A stretch of 34,656 nt of DNA. Source: Spirochaetota bacterium. Lineage in GTDB: Bacteria; Spirochaetota; UBA4802; UBA5368. Shown here one piece after another: positions 3,558 to 12,720 of the stretch. The translations under genes were made by a program, and so were the position numbers. The notes below the pieces were generated by a model that saw only the letters and a list, made by a program, of their open reading frames with translations, was not told the DNA's origin and made no database searches. The stretch lies in contig JALOTJ010000056.1 of NCBI GenBank assembly GCA_025457965.1, positions 1-34,656 on the forward strand, written 5' to 3'. Numbering within the stretch: the stretch's first letter is position 1; each line of letters begins with the position of its first letter.

Positions 3558-6035
3558 TCAGGAGACCCCGGCCGGCTCCCTGGAGGGCTTCTCCGGCTTG
3601 GATGGGCCGTCCTCGATGGGCTTGAAACTGATCGAACGGGCTTTTACCGACACTCGTATCCTGGTGCTGTCGCCGAGGCTTCCCCGTAAAAGCTCCATCG
3701 CCAGCGCGTCCTCGACCTCGCCCTGCACGACCCTGCGCAGGTAGCGGGCGCCGAACTTCTCATCGAAGCCTTTTTCGGCGAGATGGCGCTTTGCCGCGGG
3801 TGAAAAGACGAGCTCGAGGCCACGTTCCCTGAGACGATCGTTCAACTCGCGGAGCATGAGATCCACGATTTTACGTATATGCTTCTGGTCAAGCCGGTGA
3901 AAATAAACGACTTCGTCGATACGGTTGAGAAACTCCGGACTGAAGAGATGTTTGAGCTCGTCGTATACCTTTTCGCGCCCGTCCTCCGCGGCCGTCCGAT
4001 CCCCGGAGAACCCCATTTTACCCATCCTCTGAAATTCGCGGTTGCCCACGTTGGAGGTCATGATAATGACCGCGTCCCTGAAGCTGATTGAAGCGCCGAA
4101 ACTGTCCGTAAGCTCGCCCTCCTCGAGCACTTGAAGGAGGATGTTGAACACATCCGGGTGGGCCTTCTCTATCTCATCGAAAAGCACGACCGAATACGGT
4201 TTACGCTTGATCTTTTCGGTAAGCTGGCCGCCGTCGTCATAGCCCACGTACCCGGGGGGGGCTCCTATGATGCGCGATACCGAGTGCTTTTCCATATATT
4301 CGGACATGTCGAGCCTGATGAGGGCGTTTTCGTCCTCGAAGAGGAATTCGGCGAGCGCCCGTGCGAGCTCCGACTTCCCGACGCCCGTCGGCCCCAGGAA
4401 TATGAACGAGCCAATAGGCCTCCTGCCGCTTCGCAGCCCGGTTCGCGAGCGCCGTATCGCTTTACTTATCACCTTTATCGCCGCGTCCTGGCCGATTATA
4501 CGCCGGTGGAGCTCCTCTTCCATTCGTAAAAGCCGCCGCGTTTCGGTCTCCTCGAGACGTTCCACCGGTATGCCCGTCCATTGCATGACGATATCCGCTA
4601 TCTGTTCGGAATCCACCACGATCGCGTACTCGTTCGCCTTGCGCTGCCAGTCGCCGGTTTTCGCCGTCAGGACGTTCTTCTTTTCCCTGATCACGTCGCG
4701 AAGCGCGGCCGCATCCTCGTACTCCTGTGACTTTACCAGATCGTTCTTCCTGTCGTTAAGCGTGCTGATCTCTTCTTCGAGTTCCTTGATAGTGGTGGGT
4801 TTGTCGCAGTTTTCCAGCCGCGCCTTGGAACCCGCCTCGTCGATGAGGTCGATCGCCTTGTCGGGAAGAAAGCGGTCGTGAATGTACCGGCTGGCCAGGT
4901 GCACGGCCTTGCGGAGCGATTCGTCGGTGAACCTCACCATGTGATGGGTCTCGTAGCGCGCACGAAGCCCCTTGAGTATCTCGATCGTCTCGTCGATCGT
5001 CGGCTCCTTCACCATCACGGTCTGGAACCGGCGCTCGAGGGCGGCGTCTTTTTCTATATGCATCTTATACTCGTTCAGCGTCGTCGCCCCCACGCACTGA
5101 AGCTCGCCGCGCGCCAGCGCGGGTTTCAGGATATTGGCGGCGTCGATCGCTCCCTCGGCCGCGCCGGCGCCGATGATCGTGTGCAATTCGTCGATGAAGA
5201 TGATGACGTTTTCGGATGAGCGGATCTCCTTCATTATGCGTTTGAGGCGTTCCTCGAACTCGCCGCGGTACTTGGTGCCCGCCACCACCGCCGCGATATC
5301 GAGCGCAAGCACCCGCTTGTTCTGAAGCGGCTCGGGCACCTGCCTGGTGATTATGCGCTGGGCGAGCCCCTCCACGATGGCGGTCTTGCCGACGCCCGCC
5401 TCGCCGATGAGCACGGGATTGTTCTTCGTCTTGCGCGAAAGTATGCGGATTACCCGGTCGATTTCCTTGGCGCGACCCACCACGGGATCGAGCCTGTCTT
5501 CCGTGGCGAGCTGGGTGAGGTTCTGGGCGAACTCGTCCAGCGTCGGGGTCTTGGTCTTCTCGGGTAATTTCTCGCCGGTGACCGAAACGGACTGTATGCC
5601 GAGAAGCTTCAGTATCTCGGCGCGCAGCACGCCGTACTCGATCCCCGATTTCACCAGATCGTCGATCCCGGCGCAGGTACCGTCCTTGAAGATCGCCATA
5701 AGGAGGTGCTCGGTGCCGATGTAATTATTTTTAAGCCTGCGGGCCTCTTCGCGCGCCGTCTCGATGATCTTGTTATAGCGGGAGCTGATGGGCACGTTAC
5801 CGAGGATTATGGTGGTTCCCGATTTGCGTATCGACTGCTCTATGTTTTTCCTCAGCATGTCGAAGTTGACTCCGAGGCTTTTAAGTATCCGGGCTGCCAC
5901 CGAGTCGTCGTCTTTCAGCAGCGCGAGGAAGATGTGCTCCGGCCCCAGGGAATCGGAGTTCAGGCGCCGCCCCTCGGACTGGGCGTACACTTCGAGAACC
6001 TTCTTCGATCGCTTGGTAAAATCGTATATTCCCAT
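3558..6035 (-). CDS. clpC: AAA+ unfoldase ClpC
   Basis: 825 residues, full length for ClpC. Order: double Clp-N repeat (about 1-150); first AAA module with Walker A GEAGVGKT (211-218) and Walker B IIFIDE (near 278-283); middle domain containing a UVR-like helix pair (about 425-455, [16 protein letters not shown]); second AAA module with Walker A GPTGVGKS (548-555) and [10 protein letters not shown]. The ClpP-docking loop reads KMGFSGDR (Met-Gly-Phe at about 674-676). ClpC unfolds substrates, including arginine-phosphorylated proteins docked on its N-domain, and feeds them to ClpP, which is not in this window. ATG 6035 follows GGAG with good spacing, 9 bases after the mcsB stop, so it is the third gene of the mcsA-mcsB-clpC operon. 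The C-terminal tail is rich in Pro, Lys and Glu. Confidence 0.97.
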
Positions 6036-6044
6036 TGACTCCGC

Positions 6045-7085
6045 CTATCTGAACCTATCGCGCAGTAAGTCGGCACGGTAACTGTCGCAGTCGAATGCGC
6101 TTCCGAACAGCTTTCGCGCGCTCTTCTGCAGATGTGACCACTGCACGGTAACCATTAAATCATTTATTCTGTGCAAATCAATATTTTTTATGATCGATAA
6201 TATCACACCGAGCCGGACGTTCGAAAGGTGCTCCATGGCATCGGGGTAGCTGAGGATGCGGGAATGCTGCAGCACCCCGTATGAACGCCAGATCCTGTCC
6301 TCCATCTGACGGGAATACTGCATTAGATAGTCGTCCCGCGCCTCGTTCTCCATATCGATAACCATGGCGACCACCTCGTCCAGCTCCTCCAGGATGTCCA
6401 CCTCCGATTTGCCGAGCGATACGCGGTTTGAAATCTGGTACATGCAGGCGACGGTCTTGCCCCCGTCACCGGCCGAGCCGCGCATTTCGGCCCCGTAATC
6501 GCGGACCACACGGGTGACGTCCGCGATGGAGCGCATGAAGGTGAGCGTGGGAAGGTGCATCATCGCAGAAATCCGAAGGCCTGTTCCCAGGTTCGAGGGG
6601 CACGCGGTCAGGTAGCCGTACTCGTCAGAATACGCGTATGCGGCGAGGCGGTTGAGCTCGTCATCGAGCCTGTCGGCGAACCTGAAGGTCTCCATCACCT
6701 GAAAGCCCGGGTTGATGACCTGGATACGAAAATGGTCCTCCTCGTTGACCATTATCACGAAATTTCGTTTTTCCCCGAGGACCACGGAACAGTTCGGGGC
6801 CGTTTCCATTTCACCGGTGATGATGTTTCTCTCTCGAAGGAACCGCTTTTCGTCGGGGTCCATGCCGTCGAGCCTGAGGAGCCGTGCGCCATCATGCAGG
6901 GAAGTATCGGCGGCAAACCGCTCTATCACCGAATTTATTAACCGGAGATCGCCGTCGTCCTGCCGCCGGGGAAAGCTTACCGCGGCAAGGTTTCTGGCCA
7001 GTCGCACCCTGGTCGACAACACGACATCGCCGCTCGGCCCCTGACCGGTCCAGAAGCCCGGTTTATCGAAAATATCCTCGAACAT
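6045..7085 (-). CDS. mcsB: Protein arginine kinase McsB
   Basis: 346 residues with the phosphagen-kinase fold. Conserved motifs are present: STRVRLARN for nucleotide binding, NEEDHFRIQ with the catalytic acidic residues, and CPSNLGTGLR. McsB phosphorylates arginine side chains, which tags proteins for ClpC/ClpP. In Bacillus McsB an RDxxRA motif near the C-terminus binds phosphoarginine and activates the enzyme; here the aligned segment reads CDSYRA (333-338), so its first arginine is a cysteine. The catalytic core looks intact. It sits 12 bases after mcsA and 9 before clpC. The GGAG of the ribosome site directly abuts the ATG, an unusually short spacing, so initiation may depend on coupling to mcsA. 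Confidence 0.95.
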   Translation of the reverse strand: MFEDIFDKPGFWTGQGPSGDVVLSTRVRLARNLAAVSFPRRQDDGDLRLINSVIERFAADTSLHDGARLLRLDGMDPDEKRFLRERNIITGEMETAPNCSVVLGEKRNFVIMVNEEDHFRIQVINPGFQVMETFRFADRLDDELNRLAAYAYSDEYGYLTACPSNLGTGLRISAMMHLPTLTFMRSIADVTRVVRDYGAEMRGSAGDGGKTVACMYQISNRVSLGKSEVDILEELDEVVAMVIDMENEARDDYLMQYSRQMEDRIWRSYGVLQHSRILSYPDAMEHLSNVRLGVILSIIKNIDLHRINDLMVTVQWSHLQKSARKLFGSAFDCDSYRADLLRDRFR

Positions 7086-7097
7086 CTCCGGGCCCCG

Positions 7098-7631
7098 TTA
7101 CCCGGCGGTCTCGCCGTTGCGTATCATGTCCCGGAGCAAAGCCGCCTCCTCGTACCGCTCCTCCTCGACCGCCTTATCCAGCTTCTTCATTAAATCCGAA
7201 AGGGTGTCCGTCTTTTCGGCGACTTTTACGCTTTTATCGAACAGGGCCCTGGCGGGCGTCTTCATCTCTATATAATTGAGCGGTATCTTTCCGACGTGGC
7301 GTTTCTCCCCGTGATAATTGACCACCACTGAATCGAGAGAAGAACGCAGATAGCGGTAGCACTCCGGACAGCCGAGTTTGCCGGTCTTCTTGTAGTCAAG
7401 AAAGGTAAATCCGCATCCGCGGCAGCGGTTGGGGTCTACGACGTCTCCCGCCTCCTCGACGTCGAGGAAGGAAAGCATGTCCGGAACCGTAAGATTAAAA
7501 TTGGCGAGTTTGGAGTTGAGCCCGATCTCACGCGCGCAGGATTCGCACAGATGCACCTCGGATTTAACGTTCTTGATGATTTCCGTAAGATGCACCGTGG
7601 CTTCATTATGTTTGCATTTTTCGCAGAACAT
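7098..7631 (-). CDS. mcsA: McsA, zinc-finger/UVR activator of McsB
   Basis: 177 residues. Four CxxC pairs (Cys3/6, 29/32, 70/73, 88/91) form two zinc-binding modules, and a UVR domain lies at about 144-172 (EERYEEAALLRDMI). This is the standard McsA layout; McsA binds and activates McsB and links it to ClpC. The start ATG is preceded by GGGAGAGG. It is the first gene of the operon. In Firmicutes ctsR usually lies upstream, but no ctsR is found here and no CtsR heptad repeat or CIRCE element was recognised in the upstream spacer, so stress control must differ from Bacillus (inference). Confidence 0.93.
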   Translation of the reverse strand: MFCEKCKHNEATVHLTEIIKNVKSEVHLCESCAREIGLNSKLANFNLTVPDMLSFLDVEEAGDVVDPNRCRGCGFTFLDYKKTGKLGCPECYRYLRSSLDSVVVNYHGEKRHVGKIPLNYIEMKTPARALFDKSVKVAEKTDTLSDLMKKLDKAVEEERYEEAALLRDMIRNGETAG

Positions 7632-7831: not shown

Positions 7832-8076
7832 TGTAGATTCGTCAGGCCTGCTGCAAATCCGATGATGATCGGGCGATCCCTGCGTCCGGGATGACCGCCG
7901 CGGAACCCGATTGTAGAACAACTTTATTGACATTTTGCCATACTTTCGACAACGTTTGCCGATATAGTAACCTGTTACTTGACATGATACGATAAAGTCG
8001 CGCGCGGTGTCCCGGGTTTATGCCGGCTCATGATCTCGCAGGGGTACCTGGAAGCCCGCGAAAAGGAGACGACGAC

Positions 8077-8424
8077 ATGGCACACCTGCTTATACGATGG
8101 TGCGTGATTACCACCGGAATCTGCGTTGCATCGTACCTGCTCCCCGGATTCGTCGTTTCCTCGGTCTCGATGATGATAATCGGGGCGGCGGTCCTGGGGC
8201 TTCTCAATGTTACGCTTAAACCCCTGCTCATCCTGCTCACCCTGCCGCTGAACGTGCTTACCCTCGGACTCTTCACCCTGGTGATCAACGGGATAATCAT
8301 TTACATCACCGGCGGACTCATCAAAGGATGGCATATCGGCTCTTTCTGGACGGCCCTGGCAGCCTCGCTGATCATCAGCGGCATATCGCTCGTCGCGAAT
8401 GCGGCTCTGCGGTTCGAGCGATAG
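8077..8424 (+). CDS. Small four-helix membrane protein (phage-holin-family/YvlD-like)
   Basis: 115 residues, nearly all hydrophobic, with four predicted membrane helices: about 5-22, 27-48, 55-80 and 88-108. Conserved features of the YvlD-type family include GLLNVTLKPLL and a TLGLFTLVINGI segment. Despite the family name these proteins are common chromosomal inner-membrane proteins of unknown role, and there is no phage gene around it. ATG 8077 is preceded by AAAAGGAG; the frame is open further upstream, but that part lacks a ribosome site. It ends three bases before the ATP-grasp gene, so it is probably first in that operon. Confidence 0.8.
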   Translation: MAHLLIRWCVITTGICVASYLLPGFVVSSVSMMIIGAAVLGLLNVTLKPLLILLTLPLNVLTLGLFTLVINGIIIYITGGLIKGWHIGSFWTALAASLIISGISLVANAALRFER

Positions 8425-8427
8425 CCC

Positions 8428-9645
8428 ATGTACTTTAAAAAACGCAAAAACGCCGCGGCGGCGCACTTCGTTTCGATAGGGGCCGGAGAAAACCAGGTCC
8501 CCCTTATCGCGGAGGCGGTCGGGCTCGGCTACCAGATCATCGCCGTGGACCGCAATCCTCTCGCCCCGGGCGCGTCTCTCAGCAATTTGAAAATAATCGA
8601 ATCCGTGGAGAACCATGTCGAGATATTTCGCCACCTCCAGGAACCCCTCATTTACGGGGAAATCGCTGGTGTCCTCACGAAGTCCTACGGCAACGCCGTT
8701 AAAACGGCATGTTACATCGCCGAACGCATCAACAAACCGCTCGTTCCCTTCAGGCGAATAGACGACTTCATCAATAAAAAGAAGATGAAGGCGGTGCTTG
8801 GTCGTGCCGGCATCGCCACTCCGAAATTCCTGGCGGTTGAACAGGGTACCTCGCGGAAAAGGATCGCCCGGCTCGGCTTTCCCCTCGTCGTCAAGCCGGT
8901 CACGGGGCACGCCAAAAAGGACGTTCGCCTGGTCGCGAACCAGCACGAGCTCGAGCAGGCGCTGGCGGGACGGAAATCGAAGGGGAACCGTTTTATCGTG
9001 GAGCGCTTTTCCGAGGGAAGCGAGATCATCGCCGCGGGAATCGTATTCCGCGGCAGGTTTCACCTCGCCTCGCTATCCGATAAAACGCTTTCGCCCGCGC
9101 CCTATTTCGTCGACGTCATGCACATGTCGCCCTCCCGTTTCGAACATCTCCGCGACAGGATCACGGCGCTGGGACAGCGCATAGCCGAGGAATTCGAGAT
9201 CGCCGTTTCCCCTCTTATAATGGAAATCATCGTGGGCGCCGACGGCGGGCTCTGCCTGATCGAAGCGGTCCCCGAGTTCGGCGGCGAGTTCATTCCCGAA
9301 CTTCTCATACCGGAAAGTACGGGGTACCGGTTCATACGGGAGACCATTAAAGCGGCCACAAATACCGGTTTCACGCCGCCCTCGTGGCGCGTGAAAAAGG
9401 CCGTCGTTGTCCGCTATATAACAGGCGGCCCGGGCAGGCTTGTTTCGTTCGAGCACAGCCCCCGAAGGGTGCACGGACTGGTGGCATGGAAGATGTTCAA
9501 GCGCGAGGGGGCCGAGATCCGCGGCCTCGCCGCCACCAACCACGACCGCGTGGGGGTCGTCGTCACCCGCGGGCGCTCGCACCAGGCCGCGCTTGACGCC
9601 GCCGGCCGCGCCGTCGCTGCGCTCAAAATCACGATAGAGGGATGA
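8428..9645 (+). CDS. ATP-grasp ligase-like protein of unknown substrate
   Basis: 405 residues. An N-terminal Rossmann-like domain (FVSIGAGENQVPLIAEA) precedes an ATP-grasp domain: central lysine in FPLVVKPVTG (Lys156), FIVERFSEGSE, and the final metal-binding strand GLCLIEAVPEFGGEFIP (Glu279). Such enzymes form an acyl-phosphate with ATP and join a carboxylate to an amine or thiol. The usual E-x-N-P-R pattern in the last strand reads E-A-V-P-E here, so the metal-binding asparagine and following arginine are replaced; activity may be altered. A C-terminal domain of about 90 residues (VKKAVVVRYITG onward) resembles the C-terminal domain of PurK- or biotin-carboxylase-like ligases. No enzyme name is justified. 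The stop overlaps the next start (ATGA). Confidence 0.8.
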   Translation: MYFKKRKNAAAAHFVSIGAGENQVPLIAEAVGLGYQIIAVDRNPLAPGASLSNLKIIESVENHVEIFRHLQEPLIYGEIAGVLTKSYGNAVKTACYIAERINKPLVPFRRIDDFINKKKMKAVLGRAGIATPKFLAVEQGTSRKRIARLGFPLVVKPVTGHAKKDVRLVANQHELEQALAGRKSKGNRFIVERFSEGSEIIAAGIVFRGRFHLASLSDKTLSPAPYFVDVMHMSPSRFEHLRDRITALGQRIAEEFEIAVSPLIMEIIVGADGGLCLIEAVPEFGGEFIPELLIPESTGYRFIRETIKAATNTGFTPPSWRVKKAVVVRYITGGPGRLVSFEHSPRRVHGLVAWKMFKREGAEIRGLAATNHDRVGVVVTRGRSHQAALDAAGRAVAALKITIEG

Positions 9646-10298
9646 CCGGCCATATGGATTCCGAACGGGCATGGGAGCGGCATTACACCAGGGACAGGTC
9701 GGTGCTCCGCTACCCGGACGAAAACCTCGTACGCATGCTCGCCCCGTTCCTCAAAGAGCGCGGGGCCCGTACGCTCCGCGCACTCGACCTTGGCTGCGGT
9801 ACGGGCAGGCACGTGGGCCTTCTCCTCGAGATGGGGCTCGAGCGGCCACTGGGGCTCGACACCAGTTTCAACGCACTCTCCCTGTGCGCGGGGCTCTACG
9901 ACGCCCCGTTCGTGCAGGCCGATGCCCGCTCGCTTCCGGTAAGCTCGGACTCGCTCGACATCGTGGTGGCGTGGGGTTCGCTGCACTACACGGTCAAGGG
10001 GGATCTCGCCCCGATGCTCGCCGGGGTGCTTCGCGTACTCGGAAAGGGCGGCAGGCTCTTCGGCACGCTGCGCAACACGCGCGATACTTTTTTGAAAAAA
10101 GGCCTCCACCTCGGCAACGACGTCTGGAAAACCGGCCTCGACGATATAGAAAGCTCCACCGTTGCCTTCTACTCCGAGGATGAGCTCCGCGCGGCCCTGT
10201 CGCCGTTTTCATCCTTCCAATACGGTTTCATGGAGCGCAGCCCGCTTGGAAAACCGGATTCGGTCATATCACACTGGTACTTCTGGGCGGAGAAATGA
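9642..10298 (+). CDS. Class I SAM-dependent methyltransferase
   Basis: 218 residues with a Rossmann methyltransferase core (Methyltransf_11-like). SAM-binding motif I is RALDLGCGTGRHVG (about 46-58), an acidic residue ends strand 2 (GLDTS), and motif IV is DIVVAWGSLHYTV. Substrate unknown. The ATG at 9642 overlaps the ATP-grasp stop by four bases, giving translational coupling; an in-frame ATG at 9654 is an alternative. The C-terminus in turn overlaps the second methyltransferase by four bases. The tight stoichiometric linkage suggests that both act in the same pathway as the ATP-grasp enzyme (inference). Confidence 0.85.
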   Translation: MTGHMDSERAWERHYTRDRSVLRYPDENLVRMLAPFLKERGARTLRALDLGCGTGRHVGLLLEMGLERPLGLDTSFNALSLCAGLYDAPFVQADARSLPVSSDSLDIVVAWGSLHYTVKGDLAPMLAGVLRVLGKGGRLFGTLRNTRDTFLKKGLHLGNDVWKTGLDDIESSTVAFYSEDELRAALSPFSSFQYGFMERSPLGKPDSVISHWYFWAEK

Positions 10299-11212
10299 GC
10301 GCCATGTTTCACGATCCCGCGATTTACGAACAGCCCCGGTCGGTCTGCGCGCTGTGCGGAAGCGGCCGGATCGCACGACTCTATGAAATTCGGCGCTACA
10401 CCCCTCCTTTCCGGGTCGATCGCTGCGACGCGTGCGGCTTCATCTTCATGAACCCGCGTTTTACCGAAACGGTGGTCCATGGCTTTTACGGCGAGGACTA
10501 TTACCGGGGCTCCGCGGAATACGCGTATTACGACGAGCGTGAGGCGGAGCGCTTCGCCCTCCACGTCTGGAAGGCGCGCCTGCGCGTGATCGCCCGCTAC
10601 GCGAACGGAGGCAACTTTCTCGATGTGGGTGCCGCCTTCGGCGGACTCATCAAGGCGGCCTCGGCGCTCTACGACGTCTACGGCATCGAACCGTCCGACT
10701 ATTCCGGCCGCGAGGCGCGAAAAACCTTCGGTGACCGCGTGCATATAGGCACGCTCGACGATCATCCCTTTAAAAGCGGTTTTTTTTCGGCGATCACCAT
10801 GATCGAGGTAATCGAGCACCTCGCCGACCCGGCCCGCGCCCTGCGCGAGTGCCATCGCCTGCTCCGTGACGGCGGCGTGCTCGTGGTACAGACGGCCAAC
10901 ATGGCGGGGATCCAGTCCCGCCTGCGGGGCGAACGGTATGCCTATTTTATGCCGGGACATCTTTCGTATTTCACCAGAAGAAACCTGACCGACCTGCTCC
11001 TGAAATCGGGGTTCGCGCGCGTTGTCGCCCATATTCCGGTTGAATTCGGCCTGCTTCCCAAATTACTGAAATCGCGTTCTTCCTTCAAATCGGCATGGGA
11101 CTACCGGCGCTGGATCCGGATCGCCTGGTACCATCTCATCAGCAAACTTCATCTGGGCGATTTCGCCCTCACCAGCTCGATGGTGCTCTACGCGGTCAAA
11201 CGAACGAAATAG
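10295..11212 (+). CDS. Zinc-ribbon class I SAM methyltransferase (Methyltransf_23-like)
   Basis: 305 residues. An N-terminal zinc ribbon has Cys18-x2-Cys21 and Cys44-x2-Cys47, followed by FIFMNPRF, as in methyltransferases of surface-sugar and natural-product clusters. Motif I is FLDVGAAFGGLIKAA (about 109-123), and ITMIEVIEHLADP gives the motif IV/post region. The C-terminal part (SYFTRRNLTDLLLKSGF) is typical of the Methyltransf_23 group. Start ATG 10295 overlaps the previous stop (ATGA). Last gene of the operon; an imperfect hairpin (CCGGAGC 11255-11261 / GCTCCGG 11282-11288) follows without a T-run. Substrate not identifiable. Confidence 0.85.
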   Translation: MSAMFHDPAIYEQPRSVCALCGSGRIARLYEIRRYTPPFRVDRCDACGFIFMNPRFTETVVHGFYGEDYYRGSAEYAYYDEREAERFALHVWKARLRVIARYANGGNFLDVGAAFGGLIKAASALYDVYGIEPSDYSGREARKTFGDRVHIGTLDDHPFKSGFFSAITMIEVIEHLADPARALRECHRLLRDGGVLVVQTANMAGIQSRLRGERYAYFMPGHLSYFTRRNLTDLLLKSGFARVVAHIPVEFGLLPKLLKSRSSFKSAWDYRRWIRIAWYHLISKLHLGDFALTSSMVLYAVKRTK

Positions 11213-11412: not shown

Positions 11413-12720
11413 ATGAAAAAATGTCTGGTTGTTTGTCTGGCGCTGTTCATGGCGCTGGCGTTCCTCCCGCTCGGCGCCCAGGCGGCGAAGCTGAGCGAGG
11501 ACACGCTGGCAAAGAAGAAGGAAGGCTGGTATCCGACGGGACTCCCGCTGGTCAATTTTTCCAGCGACGACGGGTTCGGCTACGGCGTAAGAGGCTATGT
11601 ATATTACAACGGGTCGAAGGACGATCCCTACTTTGACAGCACCCCGTATTTCATGCAGCTCTACGCGCAGTTCTTCGCGACGACGGGCGGCGTCTACTAC
11701 CACGAGCTTAACCTCGACATGCCCTACTTCATGGGGACCAAGTTCCGCATCCTGTCGGCGGCCGTGCTGAACAAGGACAAGAACGCCAACTTCTTCGGCC
11801 TGGGCGCGGACAACGCCAAGCGGAATTTTTATGACAATACCGACAAGGAATACAGCAAATACTCCGATTTTCAGGAAGACTTCCTTGACCTTCCCGGCAA
11901 CGAAAAATGGCACAAGTACTCCATCAGCAAGCCCAAGTTCTATTTTTATCTGTTCCGCGACATCACCGAGGGACTGAAGCTCATGCTGGGCGCCGAGTTC
12001 AAGAAGATTGAAATCAGCCCCTGGGATAATAAGGAATTCGACAACCACGTGCAAAATGAAACACTTCTAACGAAGTGGAACAACGAAAAAGGTGTTCCCG
12101 GATTTGACGGAGGCTGGACGAACTTCGGCCGCATCGGCATCGGCTATGACACGCGCGACTTTGAACCCGATCCCAAGAAAGGCTATTACGCTGAATACTG
12201 CTTCGAGGTGGCGACCGAGGTTCTCGGCTCGGAATACGATTTCACGAAGCACAACGTACAGCTCATGTATTTCCTGACGCCGTTTAATCCCCTCACCTTC
12301 GGCTTGAGGGCGGGCTATACCACCTCCGCGAACGAGATTCCGTTCTACGAGATGGACTACTTCGGTTTCGCGCTCAACCGCCGGCAGGGCCTCGGCGGCA
12401 ACCGCACGCTGCTCGGTTACAAGAAGAGCCGCTTTGTCGGCAAGACGATGACCGTTGCCAACGCCGACGCGCGGTTCCAGTTCTGGGAAATCGCCGGGGG
12501 CGGACAGCGTTTCGTGTTCAAGCTCATAGGATTTTTCGACACCGGAAATGTGTATGACGAAGCGGCCAATCCCTTCGACAGCCCGCGGTGGGGCGATTAT
12601 CATCATTCCTACGGCGGCGGACTCGCCATCGCCTGGAACCTTTCGACGATCGTCCACTTTCTCTACGGTATGAGCGAGGAAGACTCGGCCATATCGATCG
12701 ACTTCAACTACAAATTCTAA
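11413..12720 (+). CDS. Omp85/BamA-TamA-like outer-membrane beta-barrel protein without POTRA domains
   Basis: 435 residues. A signal peptide is clear (MKKCLVVCLALFMALAF, cleavage probably after AQA near residue 24). The remainder alternates aromatic and polar residues as in amphipathic beta-strands and ends in NYKF, with a terminal phenylalanine as expected for barrel insertion. The segment GLGGNRTLLGYKKSRFVG resembles the Omp85 RGY/F loop motif, and GIGYDTRDFEPDPKKGYYAE is the usual bacterial surface-antigen strand pair. There is no room for POTRA domains between signal peptide and barrel, so it is not BamA itself; such short members are of unknown function. The ribosome site is GAGGAG. A strong terminator follows. 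Confidence 0.82.
   Translation: MKKCLVVCLALFMALAFLPLGAQAAKLSEDTLAKKKEGWYPTGLPLVNFSSDDGFGYGVRGYVYYNGSKDDPYFDSTPYFMQLYAQFFATTGGVYYHELNLDMPYFMGTKFRILSAAVLNKDKNANFFGLGADNAKRNFYDNTDKEYSKYSDFQEDFLDLPGNEKWHKYSISKPKFYFYLFRDITEGLKLMLGAEFKKIEISPWDNKEFDNHVQNETLLTKWNNEKGVPGFDGGWTNFGRIGIGYDTRDFEPDPKKGYYAEYCFEVATEVLGSEYDFTKHNVQLMYFLTPFNPLTFGLRAGYTTSANEIPFYEMDYFGFALNRRQGLGGNRTLLGYKKSRFVGKTMTVANADARFQFWEIAGGGQRFVFKLIGFFDTGNVYDEAANPFDSPRWGDYHHSYGGGLAIAWNLSTIVHFLYGMSEEDSAISIDFNYKF

Follow-up and report, generated by a model that had tools for sequence, protein, structure and literature searches.

The locus and its gene order

The window, meaning here the whole stretch of 34,656 nucleotides that was analysed, belongs to a Spirochaetota genome of 3.23 Mb that is 78% complete and divided into 174 contigs. 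Its named relatives are uncultured Spirochaetes or Spirochaetota assemblies and, farther off, Leptospiraceae and Turneriella. The window carries three consecutive genes, referred to below as the trio, which encode an ATP-grasp ligase (ATPg) and two class I S-adenosylmethionine (SAM) methyltransferases (MT1 and MT2), and which are preceded by a gene for a small membrane protein:

8077-8424, + strand: small membrane protein, 115 aa, PF04020
8428-9645, + strand: ATPg, ATP-grasp ligase, 405 aa, PF13535 (ATP-grasp_4) and PF18603 (LAL_C2)
9642-10298, + strand: MT1, compact class I SAM methyltransferase, 218 aa, PF13649/PF08241
10295-11212, + strand: MT2, class I SAM methyltransferase with an N-terminal set of four cysteines (Cys4), 305 aa, PF13489

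A 4-base ATGA overlap joins ATPg to MT1 and MT1 to MT2, so that the coupling of three enzymes claimed in an earlier, sequence-only reading of this DNA, made without database searches, is confirmed to the base. The same reading placed a membrane protein three bases upstream. The PF04020 gene, most likely starting at the ATG at 8077 (the list of open reading frames has an upstream ATG at 8020), does end 3 bases before the start of ATPg, at 8424, but it falls outside the conserved core because only 10 of the 40 relative loci have it as a neighbour. It adjoins ATPg in just two families, one of them the window's own.

Conservation and co-inheritance of the trio

The arrangement of the trio is more than chance, because most relatives keep the orthologues in the same order with near-zero spacing. 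Orthologues of ATPg are present throughout the window's order, in which MT1 lies on the same stretch as ATPg in 36 of 39 loci and MT2 in 24 of 39. The genes mostly overlap or are separated by a few bases, MT2 being about 5 kb away in two of the 24 loci. Where MT2 or ATPg has been relocated, the remaining two genes stay paired; in family f5, MT1 and MT2 are still together and ATPg is located elsewhere, and of 20 cases outside the window's order, 19 have MT1 and MT2 at one locus. The three genes are therefore neighbours in related genomes too, and the earlier proposal that a ligase and two methyltransferases form a small joint pathway is supported by both their conservation and their co-occurrence.

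Among 296 spirochaete genomes, 84 have MT1, 81 have ATPg and 101 have MT2, and 75 have all three genes. MT1 and ATPg occur together in 78 genomes (Fisher 4e-60, a p-value that ignores relatedness), and MT2 is present without ATPg and MT1 in 19. The counts for ATPg omit an ATP-grasp paralogue of the whole phylum, which was separated by the length of its open frame. This protein of about 760 aa, with about 25% identity to ATPg, is encoded in nearly all spirochaete genomes searched (for example, G000:C120:18834-19730). In some genomes of family f34 (L153:9109-11175, L158 and L165), a protein of about 690 aa is inserted between MT1 and MT2; judged by eye, it has a metallo-beta-lactamase-like start, a phosphatase-like middle and a TPR-like end.

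The ligase and its active-site loop

ATPg consists of an N-terminal domain of its own, an ATP-grasp core and a C-terminal LAL_C2 domain, and both PF13535 and PF18603 match above cut-off, the combination of core and LAL_C2 that places a protein in the L-amino-acid ligase (LAL) family. A RimK-type Pfam match reaches the cut-off level only. The predicted structure (pLDDT 91.9, pTM 0.90) has as its best solved match in a Foldseek search the L-amino-acid ligase 3vot (TM 0.80), followed by 4dim, BacD and RizA. The L-amino-acid ligases BL00235 (3vot), BacD and RizA share with ATPg their fold (TM 0.71-0.81) and domain order, while the identity over the structural alignment is 14-21%. Residues K117, K156, E192, E266 and E279 of ATPg are invariant in the orthologue alignment A1.

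The catalytic loop differs from that of the family. In ATPg it reads E279-x-x-P-E283-x-G-G-E287, invariant in A1, whereas most relatives have E-x-x-x-R-x-G-G. The arginine expected of an LAL enzyme is thus replaced by the invariant Glu283; all the aligned spirochaete orthologues have Glu or Gln at its position, and Arg is kept in the Firmicutes proteins of loci L237 and L238 and in most other relatives. ATPg is predicted to be an ATP-dependent amide-forming ligase, an activity that is not assured because the spirochaete enzymes have Glu or Gln in place of this ATP-grasp arginine. The loss of an asparagine in the same loop was also considered as a special trait and set aside, since other LAL-like enzymes vary there too, and only the change of the arginine is claimed as distinctive. 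In spirochaete ATPg, an acidic residue follows GG (or PG), and Asp stands there in the four Firmicutes enzymes from flagellin islands (described below), while a small sample of other LAL-like relatives has Asn, Ser, His or similar; an acidic residue here would suit the recognition of an amine-bearing substrate.

The two methyltransferases

Both MT1 and MT2 have the Rossmann motif of class I SAM methyltransferases (LDLGCGTGRH and LDVGAAFGG, respectively), with Pfam matches above cut-off. MT1 also has an N-terminal YPDENLVR motif that is specific to its family. The N terminus of MT2 has a CPLC...CxxC pattern, in which Cys18, Cys44 and Cys47 do not vary across 17 orthologues and Cys21 hardly does. 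The earlier description of MT2 as a zinc-ribbon methyltransferase is borne out as far as the conserved Cys4 set goes, which is a probable zinc ribbon; none of the Pfam zinc models matches MT2 above its cut-off, including that of the zinc-binding domain of TcaB9/MtmC-type NDP-sugar C-methyltransferases. A fold search with the MT2 model (pLDDT 89.1) returned MtmC first and matched the C-3'-methyltransferase 3ndi over about 320 columns (TMq 0.58). These matches are modest (TM 0.55-0.58, rmsd 5.5-11) and are compatible with a sugar acceptor, without being proof of one. A role in anti-phage defence was rejected, the similarity to mad2 being weak and of a generic methyltransferase kind.

Flagellar genes beside the trio in spirochaetes

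All loci were searched with flagellar proteins of Escherichia coli (NC_000913) and with five from spirochaetes, for which Pfam confirmed the families (FlgC, FliE, FliF, FliG and a rod protein of the FlgE/F/G type). Of 37 genomes outside the window's order, 25 have flgG or fliG at a distance of 0-657 bases from ATPg, and these 25 belong to five families (6/8 in f11, 14/15 in f34, 3/10 in f22 and 1/1 in each of f41 and f46). This adjacency holds also in genomes in which MT1 and MT2 are located elsewhere, and in three of the 12 genomes that do not have it, a contig end leaves only short flanks. MT2 adjoins flgB-flgC-fliE-fliF-fliG in four genomes (L127, L129, L134 and L135) of family f7, which belongs to the window's order, and in family f38 (L163/L241) the MT1-MT2 pair lies about 4 kb from the same five genes. 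The same search found no flagellar gene in 20 control regions of 16 kb each from the same group of genomes, hand-picked with their content disregarded.

The adjacency to flgG probably goes back to one or two arrangements that were inherited, so that the 25 genomes are not independent. The adjacencies being partly inherited, three arrangements were counted instead of 25 events: flgG with ATPg, fliG with ATPg, and flgBC/fliEFG with MT2 or with MT1 and MT2. One contig titled 'Caldithrix sp.' (L108, DYKF01000017.1) has ATPg and flgG arranged as in family f22; its title is probably wrong.

The window itself holds no flagellar gene detectable by the same search, and no flagellar context for ATPg was seen within its order. 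In the window, as across most of the order, the genes next to ATPg and MT1 are mcsA-mcsB-clpC or unrelated ones.

MT1 homologues in flagellin islands of Firmicutes

Relatives of MT1 are also found in another phylum, where a profile search gave one strong match in a Clostridiales assembly and, of 105 Paenibacillus-family genomes, only 3 have MT1. At all four Firmicutes loci (L116/L239, with Pfam domains assigned for L116; L123/L240; L237; and L238), MT1 clusters with an LAL-like ATP-grasp, the nonulosonic-acid synthase NeuB and a DegT aminotransferase. Flagellar genes stand on the same strand at each of them, namely fliC at L239, flgK-flgL-fliC at L240 and L238, and fliS at L237. MT1 immediately adjoins the ATP-grasp gene at L116/L239 and L240, and about 7 kb lie between the two at L238. 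The Firmicutes MT1 proteins retain Y/WPDE or YPxE near the N terminus and a CGAGRH-like SAM motif, and those of L116 and L240 also keep WGL(x)HY, LRSxxDTR and HW.

These islands resemble the trio in that an MT1 member has an LAL-like ATP-grasp next to it or close by, and flagellin or flagellar genes adjoin them. They differ from it in having no MT2, in containing genes for amino-sugar synthesis and in the order of MT1 followed by the ATP-grasp, which is itself distant from ATPg (about 24-28% identity). The Firmicutes ATP-grasp is no closer to ATPg than other LAL-like enzymes are, so the link across phyla rests on MT1. Flagellar co-location, a mark of flagellin-glycosylation islands, is absent from the window and present for orthologues of the trio in families f11, f22, f34, f41, f46 and f7 and for the Firmicutes MT1 homologues.

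Two other functions of the trio can be weighed against these neighbourhoods. The trio might constitute a small-molecule pathway, yielding a dipeptide-like or methylated metabolite unrelated to flagella, with the context reflecting shared ancestry of genome order. The closest solved structures (3vot and BacD) indeed make dipeptides, and ATPg occurs without flagellar context in the window's own order; three flagellar arrangements, the flagellin islands of another phylum and the empty control regions make this reading improbable. It is just as hard to credit that the trio ligates an amino acid directly to a flagellar protein (a rod, hook or flagellin side chain) and methylates it, with no sugar involved. 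ATPg does lie beside flgG (rod) and fliG (motor) and not beside flagellin genes, and protein-modifying ATP-grasp ligases of the RimK type are known, the family that ATPg matches at cut-off. Yet the fold and C-terminal domain of ATPg are of the type of small-molecule L-amino-acid ligases, and the Firmicutes homologues co-occur with genes for amino-sugar synthesis.

Lineage-specific neighbours

The window contains a clpC-mcsB-mcsA cluster (3558-7631, - strand), which encodes a protein-arginine kinase system and is transcribed divergently from the trio; no ctsR was seen between the two. The divergent arrangement beside the trio recurs in about 17 loci and in the window's order only. It is taken as local synteny because of this restricted distribution and the divergent transcription, and a functional coupling of the trio to arginine phosphorylation was rejected on the same grounds. 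Downstream, the trio is followed by an Omp85-family outer-membrane protein with DUF5982 (11413-12720, + strand), a succession seen apart from the window only in families f1 and f6. A sulfatase-type protein (PF00884) with an N-terminal membrane segment is encoded directly 3' of MT2 in many f7 genomes (L107:8863-10920, c6 loci). In family f4 (L040:1183-3800, L049, L138 and L144), an ATPgrasp_ST gene stands by one for a 7TM-transglutaminase protein, close to MT2. The Omp85, PF04020 and sulfatase-type proteins, citrate synthase and others were rejected as pathway members, being lineage-specific and outside the core.

Some of these neighbours would accord with a trio that tailors the lipopolysaccharide core, another surface glycan or a lipid, the flagellar genes being incidental or regulatory. 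The Omp85 protein after MT2 in the window and the sulfatase-type membrane protein after MT2 in the c6 loci fit such a role, as do a GT2 gene (a weak sugar-transferase match) and an M23 peptidase gene upstream of MT1 and MT2 in Turneriella (L154) and the presence of NeuB-like genes in all relatives. The envelope neighbours are lineage-specific, however, whereas the adjacency to flgG or fliG spans five families; the MT1 homologues of Firmicutes are found within flagellin islands, and no trio gene was seen within an O-antigen-type cluster at the spirochaete loci. Envelope tailoring is accordingly an unlikely function, although a less remote one than the two considered above.

Comparison with known flagellin-modification systems

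The exact trio matches no known pathway, as the sequence-only reading had stated, but this does not extend to pairs of a ligase and a methyltransferase, which are already known in flagellin-modification clusters (PMC3765264; compare PMC5207246 and PMC13317340). In Shewanella oneidensis, the operon with sfmD (methyltransferase) and sfmE (ATP-grasp_4) is required for nonulosonic-acid modification of flagellin, whose substituent (236, 250 and 264 Da) bears additional methyl groups (PMC3765264). The sfmABCDE genes and the trio have in common a methyltransferase and an ATP-grasp_4 ligase encoded side by side, the Shewanella substituent being methylated and carried on a flagellin nonulosonic acid (PMC3765264). 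The likeness drawn here is one of gene content, and there are differences: SfmD, of 395 aa, is a single methyltransferase with no second one beside it, and SfmA-C have no counterpart in the trio.

The type B flagellin of Clostridioides difficile requires an ATP-grasp protein (CDR20291_0245) for its peptidylamido-sugar (PMC5207246, PMC5207245). Like ATPg, this enzyme is a PF13535 ATP-grasp; it is required for capping a flagellin glycan through an amide link, and methylated rhamnose is present. Unlike the trio, this system has FemAB-type and other partner genes, methylation ascribed to a glycosyltransferase fusion and a different sugar. In another clostridium, a PtmH-orthologous methyltransferase has been proposed for Leg5GluNMe7Ac, a glutamyl, N-methyl product of the kind predicted here, formed in a flagellin nonulosonic-acid pathway (PMC13317340). 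PtmH is likened to MT1 by its putative role.

A proposed role in flagellin-glycan tailoring

The genes of the trio are conserved, coupled and co-inherited, their products keep intact SAM-binding and ATP-grasp folds, and in other spirochaete families and in Firmicutes their orthologues and homologues have a flagellar or flagellin-island context. A link to the flagellum is likely. Because the genes are co-inherited, adjoin flagellar genes in many relatives and are similar to pairs in flagellin-sugar islands of other bacteria, the trio probably decorates the internal flagella with an unusual methylated sugar. The sequence-only reading had left the substrate as a small molecule, lipid or surface sugar, a range that the neighbourhoods narrow to a flagellum-associated amino-sugar glycan.

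As a full statement including its chemistry, the reading of the trio as a flagellum-associated glycan-tailoring module is favoured with somewhat less confidence. ATPg would activate a carboxylate, perhaps that of an amino acid, with ATP and form an amide with an amino sugar, which is most likely nonulosonic-acid-like and bound for serine or threonine residues of the flagellin FlaB. MT1 would then add an N- or O-methyl to the attached group, comparable with the PtmH step towards Leg5GluNMe7Ac, and MT2, given its partial structural resemblance to sugar methyltransferases, may methylate the sugar or the cap. We infer this exact chemistry from Shewanella sfmD/sfmE and the clostridial legionaminic-acid derivatives; the flagellin target, the nonulosonic-acid sugar, the order of the reactions and the assignment of each enzyme to a group are putative.

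No genes for amino-sugar or nonulosonic-acid synthesis were recognised near the trio in the window, such co-clustering being seen only in Firmicutes, and the source genome has a NeuB-like gene elsewhere, outside any nonulosonic-acid cluster. NeuB is uninformative as a phylogenetic marker, with PF03102 matches in all 59 relatives. Maf-type PF01973 proteins, of which every listed genome has 2-5, are uninformative as well, and matches to LipL32, tried as a Leptospira marker, are scattered over the sample and do not single out the genus.

The glycans of spirochaete flagellins matter for the assembly of periplasmic flagella and for motility, and the literature searched names no tailoring genes for them in this part of the phylum. 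If the proposed role is correct, the trio provides directly testable candidate genes in non-pathogenic, culturable relatives, and the ligase-and-methyltransferase logic of flagellin modification reaches a further phylum, in which the active-site loop of the ATP-grasp is unusual. In Leptospira, putative glycans on FlaB1 have been observed by cryo-EM at the interface of core and sheath (PMC13144727). A more specific and only tentative proposal is that the trio of Leptospiraceae/Turneriella-type and related spirochaetes makes an undescribed glycan of the periplasmic flagella, amide-capped and doubly methylated, by way of an ATP-grasp enzyme with Glu or Gln in place of Arg, and that this glycan perhaps helps to attach sheath proteins to the FlaB core.
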